The translations under genes and the position numbers were made by a program. The notes beneath the pieces were generated by a model. That model was not told the origin of the DNA. It worked only from the letters and a program-made list of their open reading frames with translations, and did no database searches. 64,000 bases of DNA from Aminobacter niigataensis (GTDB lineage Bacteria > Pseudomonadota > Alphaproteobacteria > Rhizobiales > Rhizobiaceae). Position 1 is the stretch's first letter, and each line of letters begins with the position of its first letter. Where the stretch lies: positions 868,001 through 932,000 of the forward strand of contig NZ_JACHOT010000001.1 of the NCBI RefSeq assembly GCF_014200015.1, written 5' to 3'. This document shows, piece by piece, positions 48,438-57,214 of this stretch.

Positions 48438-51359
<2,922 letters not shown>

Positions 51360-51512: not shown

Positions 51513-51527
51513 GAACAAAGGCCGAAC
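51513..51527 (-). promoter_or_regulatory. LexA (SOS) box upstream of uvrA
   Basis: GAAC-AAAGGCC-GAAC on the plus strand, i.e. GTTC-N7-GTTC read in the uvrA direction, an exact match to the alphaproteobacterial LexA operator. Confidence 0.8.
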
Positions 51528-51558
51528 GGGCTCCTGACAACGTTATGGCAGGAGCCCG
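51527..51558. repeat. 10-bp perfect inverted repeat beside the uvrA LexA box
   Basis: CGGGCTCCTG (51527-51536) and CAGGAGCCCG (51549-51558) around a 12-base loop. It abuts the LexA box and has no T-run on either side, so it is not an obvious terminator. Confidence 0.55.
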
Positions 51559-51610
51559 GCAGGGCGAGAGCCAGGCTTCGATCACATTTTTCGCCTCTAA
51601 CAACGTTGTG

Positions 51611-52028
51611 GTTGACGTAGCGGAATCAGGGATGCAAACTCCTGACGTCGCCTGAAGCCGAGCCTCTCTTGAGGGCTCCTCACCATGCTACGGTCGGTCT
51701 GCGAGACGCCGCAGACACGCGAGTTGAGCAGCAGGCGTACAATTGGCGCAACTGACGTAGGAGCTAGGCATGACTCCACCGGACAGTCCCTTAAGGTTCC
51801 GCTAGCGAGACGGAACCGCAGCAGGCAGAGGTGCCGGCATTTCTGTTAGGAAAAGCCCTGCAAACCGTGACCTACTGATCCCCTACAATTTGAGACCATG
51901 GTCGGATCTGTGGCCGAGAGCCACTATGAATCCGAGAGAGCAAAGCCGGTAAACCACTCCCGGCAGTCAAGGGTATAACCCGACAAAAGGCCCCGTGCGC
52001 TCCTGGGAGCGGCGGGGCCATATTTTTT
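51611..52028 (+). ncRNA. Candidate structured non-coding RNA ending in a Rho-independent terminator (class not recognised)
   Basis: No credible gene occupies 51360-52284, but this part is densely structured. A three-way junction is closed by CGTAGC (51616-51621) with GCTACG (51687-51692) and holds hairpins TCAGG/CCTGA (51626-51645) and GAGCC/GGCTC (51660-51678). Further hairpins are GTCTGC/GCAGAC (51697-51716), GGAG/CTCC (51760-51777), GGTTCCG/CGGAACC (51795-51817), CATGGT/ACTATG (51897-51928, with one G-U pair that favours the plus strand), GCCGG/CCGGC (51945-51964) and GGG/CCC (51971-51981). A terminator closes it at 51989-52028. Motifs of tmRNA, RNase P, 6S and cobalamin riboswitch were sought and not found. 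The 5' end is approximate. Confidence 0.5.
51989..52028 (+). terminator. Rho-independent terminator with no coding gene before it
   Basis: GGCCCCG (51989-51995) pairs with CGGGGCC (52013-52019); inside, CGCTC/GAGCG forms a second stem with a CTGG loop. TATTTTTT follows on the plus strand; on the minus strand only TTTT follows. The nearest upstream plus-strand gene is more than 5 kb away, so the terminator implies a local transcript. Confidence 0.85.
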
Positions 52029-52284
52029 GGGCTGTTTCTTGGGTCGGGAGACTTGCCCGTCGACGGCAAGGGCTGCCTGCAGCATCCCATGGGCGATGAT
52101 CTTTCTAGCGACGTGGCGAATGCGTCTCGGCGGCCATTTGGCATACTCCTAGCTTTGATCCGTCAGGGGGGACGCGACGAAACTGGTGCCGGGCCATTAA
52201 GATCGGCTGTCGGCCGGTGAGGCTTGCCAGCGGTTCAGGATGCCAAGGGCAGAGGTGGCCGCGTGATGAATGCCTCCCCCTATT

Positions 52285-52887
52285 CTATACTGCACTATTG
52301 CCGCGATCCGACATCAGCCCTGCACTATTGCCGCGGTCCGACATCAGCAGGACGCAAGGCCCGTTATTCCAGCCGGTTGGAGGCTGAAGGCAGAATTCAG
52401 TGAAGTGACGTTTTCCGAATACATCAAGATAATCGGCATAGCCAAAGAAGAACAGCTTGCCTTTGGACATACCCTTCAACTCGTCCTGCAATCTCGCCCA
52501 AGTACGCGCTGTTATTTCGGTTTCGAGTTCGCGCAGATGTGTCGGACCGAGCGACTCTTCAGCGGAGTCGCGGGTCATATTTCGCCAATTTTCCACGTCA
52601 GGCTCTTCGGCGGCGAAAATGTTGGTTGCAGCCGTCAAGCGCTGAGCCGGCGTCTGTCCAACGTTTTCAAGCCTAATCAGGTAAACGAGGACTGGCGTAC
52701 TAGACTTTGGTTTTGGTGGAGAGAACCTGGTTATCCTTCCGTCCTTAATGGCAACGTAGGCCCGACTTTGTGTCTCGGAAGAGACACGCAGCTGTTTCAG
52801 CGTTTGCCACAAGACAAGCAAGGACAAGGCGGCGAGCCCGAACGCTGCAAATTCGACCACGTCACAATTGTTGTCACACCAATTCAC
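52285..52887 (-). CDS. Hypothetical protein with one N-terminal membrane segment
   Basis: 200 residues with a GTG start; AGGAG lies about 11 bases upstream. One hydrophobic stretch at about 10-27 (VVEFAAFGLAALSLLVLWQTL) is followed by a polar domain with a beta-rich middle (AYVAIKDGRITRF, VLVYLIRLENVGQTPAQRL). The layout of a single membrane helix then a soluble domain with an ENVGQTPA strand recurs in many uncharacterised bacterial membrane proteins. The last 20 residues are a tandem duplication (LMSDRGNSA twice), caused by a 30-bp repeat. The function is unknown. The terminator at 52.0 kb could also end this transcript. Confidence 0.65.
   Translation of the reverse strand: MNWCDNNCDVVEFAAFGLAALSLLVLWQTLKQLRVSSETQSRAYVAIKDGRITRFSPPKPKSSTPVLVYLIRLENVGQTPAQRLTAATNIFAAEEPDVENWRNMTRDSAEESLGPTHLRELETEITARTWARLQDELKGMSKGKLFFFGYADYLDVFGKRHFTEFCLQPPTGWNNGPCVLLMSDRGNSAGLMSDRGNSAV
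52291..52348. repeat. 30-bp tandem duplication inside the 3' end of the hypothetical gene
   Basis: TGCACTATTGCCGCG at 52291 recurs at 52321. Each copy continues with the same 28 bases apart from one A/G difference. The period is 30 bp, i.e. 10 codons, so the reading frame is kept. Confidence 0.9.
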
Positions 52888-56498: not shown

Positions 56499-56623
56499 AA
56501 AAATGACTTGTGGACTGCACAAGGATTTCAGCCTGCAGGGGGCGCGGGCGGACGGTGCAATGGGCTAGGGTGCGCCTTCATATTTTCTTGGAATTCGGTT
56601 TCGGACGAGCGCGGAGCGGTGTC

Positions 56624-57214
56624 ATGGCAGGTAGCGTCAACAAGGTCATTCTGGTCGGCAATCTGGGGGCGGACCCTGAAATCCGCCGGCTCAATTCGGG
56701 CGAGCCGGTCGTCAACCTGCGCATCGCGACCTCGGAAAGCTGGCGCGACAAGAACTCGGGCGAGCGCAAGGAAAAGACCGAGTGGCACCAGGTCGTCATC
56801 TTCAACGACAACCTCGCCAAGGTCGCCGAGCAGTACCTGAAGAAGGGCATGAAGGTTTACATCGAAGGCCAGCTCCAGACCCGCAAGTGGGAGAAGGACG
56901 GCATCGAGCGCTACACCACCGAAATCGTGCTGCAGAAATTCCGCGGCGAGCTGCAGATGCTCGACGCGCGCGGCCAGGGCGGTGACGCAGGTTATGGCGG
57001 CGGCCAGGTCGGCTATGGCGGCGGGCAGGGTGGCGGCTATGGCGGCGGCGGTGGTGGACGCGGATCCGATTTCGGCCAGTCGAGCCCGACCGACAGCTAT
57101 GGCGGCGGACGTGGCGGTTCAGGCGGCGGCGGTGGTGGCCGTAGCGGCGGCCAGGGTGGCGGCGGAATGGGCGGTGGCGGCTCGCGCGACCTCGACGACG
57201 AAATCCCGTTCTGA
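56624..57214 (+). CDS. ssb: Single-stranded DNA-binding protein
   Basis: 196 residues. OB-fold at 1-112 ([39 protein letters not shown]), a Gly-rich disordered linker (about 120-185), and the acidic interaction tip DDEIPF that binds RecO, PriA, exonuclease I and others. The ATG at 56624 is the conserved start; upstream in-frame sequence is not family-like. SOS regulation is likely through the LexA box upstream. Confidence 0.95.

Follow-up and report, generated by a model that had tools for sequence, protein, structure and literature searches.

A candidate free-standing RNA gene with a conserved Met-X-Pro-Pro mini-ORF, usually located between divergent uvrA and ssb in Rhizobiales

Alpha_tmRNA (RF01849), found in alphaproteobacteria, is structured and includes a short coding stretch. 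It shares these two features with the RNA candidate described here, but it has no match at this locus. Further related systems are described in the papers cited in this paragraph. In Sinorhizobium meliloti, rnTrpL/peTrpL (PMC10117765) is likewise a small RNA of a related bacterium with a very short translated ORF; it is leaderless and derives from the trp attenuator, whereas our candidate has a Shine-Dalgarno (SD) site, a putative promoter of its own, a diproline, and no attached operon. The mgtL leader of Salmonella (PMC5021804) likewise contains a short, proline-rich ORF, the translation rate of which decides RNA folding, as we propose for our candidate. However, mgtL leads a downstream gene while our RNA stands alone, and the two are likened by description, not by sequence. 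The EF-P-dependent PPX motifs (PMC4140641) share with the mini-ORF a Pro-Pro followed mostly by Asp or Gly, but they lie inside ordinary proteins, whereas here Pro-Pro occupies codons 3 and 4 of a mini-ORF that has little else conserved. Finally, the Downstream-peptide/yfr6 RNAs of cyanobacteria (PMC2864571) also combine a structured RNA with a short ORF backed by synonymous changes; they belong to another lineage, their RNA motif is the 5' UTR of the ORF, and their model, RF01704, was unmatched here.

The window (the whole stretch of DNA analyzed) comprises 64,000 nucleotides of the Aminobacter niigataensis genome. In it, the RNA candidate occupies the spacer between uvrA (48438-51359, minus strand, recognized by its Pfam UvrA domains) and a group of accessory genes. 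According to the initial annotation, this spacer contains a candidate unclassified structured RNA on the plus strand and no plausible gene. Our revised boundaries place a putative promoter at 51612-51640 and the inferred transcript of about 380 nt at 51647-52028, from the presumed start to the T-run; they are based on the promoter and terminator positions and on a block of conservation in alignment A2. Thus delimited, 51612-52028 looks like a free-standing RNA gene on the plus strand. The interval was indeed intergenic and contained local hairpins, but a mini-ORF at 51770-51805 had been overlooked. Since this mini-ORF is conserved, the RNA is probably not purely noncoding. A 54-codon plus-strand ORF (51685-51849) was rejected as a gene, its frame being lost by eye in the relatives L011 and L012. 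The next sizeable ORF 3' of the RNA (52285-52887, minus strand) encodes 200 aa without a Pfam match, and ssb follows on the plus strand at 56510-57214, 4.5 kb from the RNA. By eye, a 30-bp unit is present twice in tandem at 52290-52349 (CTGCACTATTGCCGCG-TCCGACATCAGC-), at the 3' end of the 200-aa ORF.

A search against Rfam 15 at the gathering thresholds yielded 0 matches in the window; in the RNA region, the only hit up to E 10 was a chance-level one to NEAT1_1 (E=7). Likewise, 0 Rfam matches up to E 0.5 were obtained in 20 relatives. The sole alpha_tmRNA match in the genome (308.8 bits) was at C1:468389-468748. In line with the initial proposal of an unclassified RNA, none of the Rfam families fitted, and the tmRNA is at another place. 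The default alternative is that divergence has hidden a known RNA, be it tmRNA, 6S, RNase P, or a named small RNA of rhizobia. It draws on a candidate of 2010, "Rhizobiales-1," which is listed without an Rfam number in a table of PMC2864571; given the searches, we regard this alternative as highly improbable. In open-licence literature, we found no paper on the locus or on the letters of the peptide, and uvrA is not mentioned in the main texts of PMC5596092, PMC3927594, PMC10117765, and PMC2864571. We call the RNA family new in the sense that it was not found in Rfam 15 or in open-licence papers, Rhizobiales-1 being known to us from its table listing alone.

By BLASTN, the RNA stretch was detected at at least 85% identity in 10 of 10 genomes of the genus, and short cores were matched in 2 further genomes of other genera (61 genomes searched). 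The conservation had sharp edges: the mean pairwise identity within the genus was 0.82 to 0.98 in 40-column blocks inside the element but fell to 0.52 immediately upstream of it and to 0.68 at its 3' edge. A core pattern (GGAG, ATG, 12 further fixed bases, and two Y) occurred in 40 of 394 genomes of the window's family, at one place each, while its reversed control gave 0. With a similar pattern, 106 stretches were found in named genomes; the 80 listed were mostly from Mesorhizobium, with others from Aminobacter, Pseudaminobacter, Chelativorans, Nitratireductor, Aquibium, and unclassified bins. Of 56 representatives, an alignment of 35 omits L044, L061, and L136, which are chance pattern matches, together with 18 closer relatives. 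One pattern match, L071, is a record labelled Cellvibrionaceae with the RNA core and ssb in the rhizobial arrangement, and is probably a misbinned contig.

A covariance model (R1), built from 32 sequences obtained with a pattern that fixes Pro-Pro, matched 136 of 394 genomes of the family, representing 56 of its 109 genera (142 places, E 0.01). We fetched 60 of these places, all among the 72 with E-values from 8.9e-20 to 3.2e-6; another 27 of the 142, at E 1.1e-4 to 0.01, lie outside this checked set. In an order-wide sample, R1 matched 18 of 397 genomes at E 1e-4, including 8 outside the family. A broader model (R2) matched 37 of 103 genomes of a second family (39 places, 30 of which were fetched) and 3 of 289 genomes in a class sample, the window's own included. 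The large model searches ran with stricter filters, which lose weak matches. Two isolated matches, L329 (MTPPD...) and L330 (MNPPD...), belong to the same class but lie outside the order and may reflect transfer or a taxonomy error. Overall, the matches suggest a family that is spread through the order in a patchy manner and is rare beyond it.

To check its absence, we took 39 genomes that lacked a clear match, 3 of which had weak R1 matches elsewhere, and examined 40 stretches upstream of ssb. With the filters off, R1 matched one stretch clearly (L276) and three others near E 0.5; of these three, L280 was accepted by eye (SD, MSPPD-stop, promoter, and terminator). Divergent copies were therefore present in 2 of the 40 stretches, 5 of which (L274, L275, L276, L279, and L280) were read by eye. 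The start of uvrA is no more than about 440 nt from ssb in 31 of these stretches.

The RNA usually lies between divergent uvrA and ssb. Among the 106 named loci, uvrA was seen in 97 and was divergent and upstream of the RNA in all 97, while ssb was seen in 80 and was downstream on the same strand in all 80; both genes were seen in 75 loci and neither in 4. The same arrangement was found at 60 weaker model matches (uvrA 56/56, ssb 47/47; both in 44, neither in 1). Because the models know nothing of the neighbors, this synteny validates the weak family matches. At eight loci from other families, three keep the order uvrA-RNA-ssb, one is rearranged, and four have neither gene in the stretch examined.

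The constant position of ssb on the same strand, together with the classic attenuator layout of a leader ORF followed by a terminator, would suit a cis-acting leader or attenuator of ssb or another downstream gene. However, among the 88 named loci whose sequence extends far enough, 58 have a ClpP-like ORF on the opposite strand within 3.2 kb downstream (named by reading the sequence in loci L043-L148), the end of which is at a median of about 0.7 kb after the mini-ORF ATG. At those loci, the RNA is therefore not the leader of that gene. Moreover, in the window the next sizeable ORF is the minus-strand one, with ssb 4.5 kb away, and in L326 ssb faces the other way. By eye, L011 and L012 have GAAC-N7-GAAC boxes, the alphaproteobacterial LexA motif, between the RNA terminator and ssb, which suggest a separate ssb promoter. 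A cis-acting leader would have a co-directional regulated gene directly downstream in all members, which is not the case here, and we consider the leader improbable.

Compensatory changes in an alignment of homologs had been proposed as a test of the RNA. They were found in six helices, which covary: H1, H2, H3, an inner helix of H3, H4, and the terminator. Each was paired in 89 to 97% and had 14 to 106 double-changed cells, and neither value was reached in any of 1,000 shuffles. This count is not a probability, because shuffling ignores how closely the sequences are related. There is also a bias toward H2, H4, and the terminator, whose pairs were adopted or extended from the consensus fold of the very alignment tested; H1 was defined by its loop, and H3 was placed by eye. 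The 5' part aligns poorly, and its consensus fold therefore contained no structure.

Hairpin H1 (GTCTGC-gagacgcc-GCAGAC, 51697-51716) was counted in the 44 of 88 sequences that have the loop; its outer four pairs were 92.0% paired with 37 double-changed cells, against 12.3 in shuffles (0/1000), and only 53.4% paired when slid by one. Hairpin H2 (GGTTCCG/CGGAACC, 51795-51817) overlaps the end of the mini-ORF. It was analyzed in alignments A3 (without L100) and A5 (without L280). In A3, double changes occurred at 5 of 8 pairs (23 cells, 0/500 shuffles), and in A5 at 7 of 8 pairs, a spread that 32 of 500 shuffles reach, with 45 cells versus 12.8 (0/500). On both alignments, slid controls were far lower. 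Hairpin H3 (51902-51935) is formed by TCGGAT/ATCCGA (51902-51907/51930-51935; 44 double-changed cells, 0/1000) and encloses the inner helix GTGGC/GCCAC (51910-51924; 14 cells, 0/1000). A single-stranded ACAAT precedes H3 in 26 of 60 and 11 of 32 matches (controls 1 and 6, and 1 and 1, respectively). Hairpin H4 (GCCGG/CCGGC, 51945-51964) had 33 double-changed cells versus 8.0 in shuffles (0/1000). The strong stem with a T-run that had been predicted to close the interval was confirmed as a covarying Rho-independent terminator (51989-52028, T-run 52023-52028; 106 double-changed cells versus 26.6, 0/1000).

By contrast, the two helices that had been singled out did not hold. In ten sequences of the genus, CGTAGC/GCTACG (51616-51621/51687-51692) showed one-sided changes only, with unpaired cells at 5 of 6 pairs, and the putative promoter overlaps its 5' arm. 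In CATGGT/ACTATG (51897-51902/51923-51928), one pair could not form in 8 of the 10 sequences (in one of these because of a gap) and another could not form in 6; the helix kept at this site is that of H3. In summary, the interval, the terminator, the presence of hairpins, and the strand were upheld, while the two named helices and the lack of a gene were not. Covariation, the sharp conservation edges, the lack of an Rfam family, and the spread over several families of the order all support the proposal of an unclassified structured RNA.

The folding energy was modestly favorable for 51600-52030 (z -2.47; 1 of 100 shuffles equally good) and for 51648-52028 (z -1.97; 1 of 100). Since the value for the minus strand is slightly more favorable still (z -3.39; 0 of 100), the energy gives no choice of strand. 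In the covarying helices, however, G-U cells outnumbered A-C cells, clearly in H1 (19 versus 2), H2 (34 versus 5), and the terminator (29 versus 7), and weakly in H3 (19 versus 12), its inner helix (4 versus 2), and H4 (17 versus 11). Because of these wobble cells, the plus strand, as proposed before, is the better-supported one.

Promoter and terminator were assigned by comparison, since a consensus promoter scan found no promoter and a simple terminator scan performed at chance level (1 found, 0.8 expected). The putative -35 element is TTGACG (51612-51617): TTGAC was present 110 to 230 nt before the ATG in 53 of 60 family matches and 28 of 32 other matches, compared to 2 of 60 and 3 of 30 control stretches. 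A -10-like element, CAAACT (51635-51640), follows after 17 nt. Hexamers starting with CA were the commonest at the -10 spacing in the window's family (13 family cases were unreadable there), but not in the second family. Further upstream, the alignment of 35 sequences revealed the motif CGATCACATTTTT (51579-51591, plus strand), which may be an activator or UP site. GATCAC at -300 to -150 was frequent in the window's family (33/60 matches) and rare in the second (2/32 others). The motif was also considered as the marker of a regulon; the own genome has 4 copies of GATCACATTTT versus 1 of its reversed control. On the uvrA side, a GAAC-N7-GAAC box is present at 51513-51527. LexA control of the RNA was rejected, since this box is 85 nt before the -35 element and fits uvrA better. 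An inverted repeat, GCTCCTG...CAGGAGC (51530-51555), lies beside the uvrA promoter region and is also present in L011.

The mini-ORF (51770-51805, plus strand) would encode MTPPDSPLRFR and is preceded by an SD sequence, GGAG (51760-51763). In all 92 model matches (60 from the family, 32 from the second family and the class), an SD-like 4-mer was followed by ATG-NNN-CCN-CCN. GGAG, GAGG, or AGGA was present at -16 to -5 in 60/60 and 32/32 matches (GGAG itself in 55 and 32), while six control offsets gave 2 to 12 of 60 and 0 to 10 of 32. Among 180 SD-ATG sites in the window, Pro-Pro at codons 3 and 4 occurred in 2, one of which is the mini-ORF (1 of 179 others). The matches were partly selected for Pro-Pro, because R1 and R2 score that stretch and R1 was seeded by a Pro-Pro pattern; we estimate that strong matches should survive loss of the Pro codons.

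Codon-position entropies and invariant columns were in line with coding. In alignment A4, consisting of the 60 family matches without an ORF filter, the ATG was invariant, codons 3 and 4 were always CCN, and codons 1, 3, and 4 were fixed at positions 1 and 2. Variable positions were the third positions of codons 2 to 5 (0.75 to 1.17 bits), the second position of codon 2 (0.97), and the first position of codon 5 (0.53), the replacements being Thr to Asn, Ser, or Ile and Asp to Asn, Lys, or Gln. The periodicity faded from codon 6, although G still predominated at its position 2, and the H2 stem constrains codon 9. Alignment A6 (32 matches, 30 from the second family) had the same Met-X-Pro-Pro core and used all four Thr codons at codon 2, and its 15 ORFs of 19 codons all encode MTPP with third-position changes only; this set is not independent, since copies from some of its genomes helped build R2. 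In alignment A5 (28 sequences), the invariant columns were exactly the start codon ATG and the first two bases (CC) of codons 3 and 4, though eight rows had been cut with the Met-X-Pro-Pro start as an anchor after the model had found them.

These patterns bear on whether the peptide is made at all. The RNA could act in trans as an untranslated small RNA, with SD-ATG-CCNCC serving for pairing or protein binding and its C-rich stretch as an anti-SD-like seed. In line with this, most of its length is structured and covarying, codon 2 varies at position 2, and GACAGT is kept in 39 of 40 pattern matches where GAY-AGY was allowed, more than the amino acids require. GACAGT is lost in more distant copies, and its retention in close relatives hints at an extra role at the RNA level. 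However, the freest positions of codons 3 and 4 are exactly the third positions of the frame set by SD and ATG, and codon 2 changes (TCA in L316, GAA in L276) while ATG and Pro-Pro stay. Furthermore, by eye, GGAG-CTCC pairing is lost when codon 2 is ACC or ACG, and sequestration of the SD by GGAG/CTCC was rejected for this reason. An untranslated RNA therefore seems rather unlikely to us.

Alternatively, the RNA might be a small mRNA with the micropeptide itself as the functional product. As a peptide, the N-terminal MTPP seems to be conserved, and ORFs of 19 codons are more frequent than those of any other single length in both sets (14/60 and 15/32). But the ORF length ranges from 6 to 29 codons in one set and from 7 to 28 in the other, and in L280 the mini-ORF is only MSPPD-stop (five codons; RNA-sense position about 804), with promoter and terminator kept. 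In addition, the coding pattern is lost gradually from codon 6 onward, the H2 stem coincides with later codons, and the bulk of the conserved RNA is outside the ORF. We consider a functional micropeptide unlikely. Constraint at the protein level thus seems limited to about codons 1 to 5, in matches that are partly model selected. As in dual-function small RNAs, a promoter and terminator of its own and conserved structure were identified, by comparison alone.

Comparison thus identifies the gene, its strand, the helices, SD-ATG, and the Met-X-Pro-Pro core, and the description of the locus as an RNA gene with a conserved Met-X-Pro-Pro mini-ORF is very likely correct. How the RNA works is more speculative. 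Our preferred reading, which we put forward as tentative at somewhat less than even chances, is that ribosome pausing at Met-X-Pro-Pro governs how this stand-alone RNA folds or how stable it is. Transcription, translation, pausing, a switch, and a role in trans are all inferred parts of this reading. The RNA gene would be transcribed from its own promoter to its own terminator, and the good SD site would drive translation of the mini-ORF. The start, Met-X-Pro-Pro(-Asp/Gly), would then pause the ribosome at codon 4, to an extent set by EF-P. H2 starts 25 nt after the A of the ATG in 30 of 32 rows of A3 (24 nt in the other two), which corresponds to +16 when counted from the first base of codon 4. 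Toeprints usually lie at this distance, so that the front edge of a ribosome paused at codon 4 should be at the start of H2. The leading edge of the paused ribosome would thus stand at the foot of H2, which would be left folded with its base touched, while a ribosome running on would open H2. Pause or read-through may decide the folding of H2 and the 3' domain, or the lifetime of the RNA, and the RNA would act in trans on an RNA or protein target, reporting translation status.

The residue after Pro-Pro is relevant to pausing. In the 60 family matches, codon 5 was D in 51, E in 3, K in 3, N in 2, and Q in 1; in the 32 others it was G in 19, D in 7, E in 2, and H, Y, S, or Q in 1 each. Pro-Pro (92/92) was therefore followed by Asp or Gly in 77 of 92 matches and by a pause-favoring D, N, or G in 79, with other residues in 13. 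According to PMC4140641, PPD and PPN occur only in the pausing set, PPQ and PPK occur in both sets, and at PPG a ribosome lacking EF-P pauses while peptidyl-Pro occupies the P site and Gly-tRNA the A site; many PPX sites show no pause in vivo. Proline pausing is also treated in PMC8129111 and PMC5021804. Codon 5 is sometimes Lys, Gln, His, or Tyr, which are weaker or unassessed pause contexts, and this counts against the mechanism.

In its most specific form, the proposal is that the stand-alone RNA reports on the state of EF-P or of the ribosome. Arrest at the four-codon Met-X-Pro-Pro start would park the ribosome against H2 and so switch a conserved, trans-acting 3' domain. We regard this version as doubtful, but if true, the reporter RNA would be a ribosome-arrest switch that leads no gene.

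The locus thus defines an RNA family that is absent from Rfam 15 and present in several families of the order, with hairpins under selection. The clearest constraint at the protein level is the Met-X-Pro-Pro at the start of the mini-ORF. Arrest motifs are known from the leaders of regulated genes. A free-standing RNA built on such a motif would be a new use of translation arrest, and it would provide a handle on EF-P function in alphaproteobacteria.
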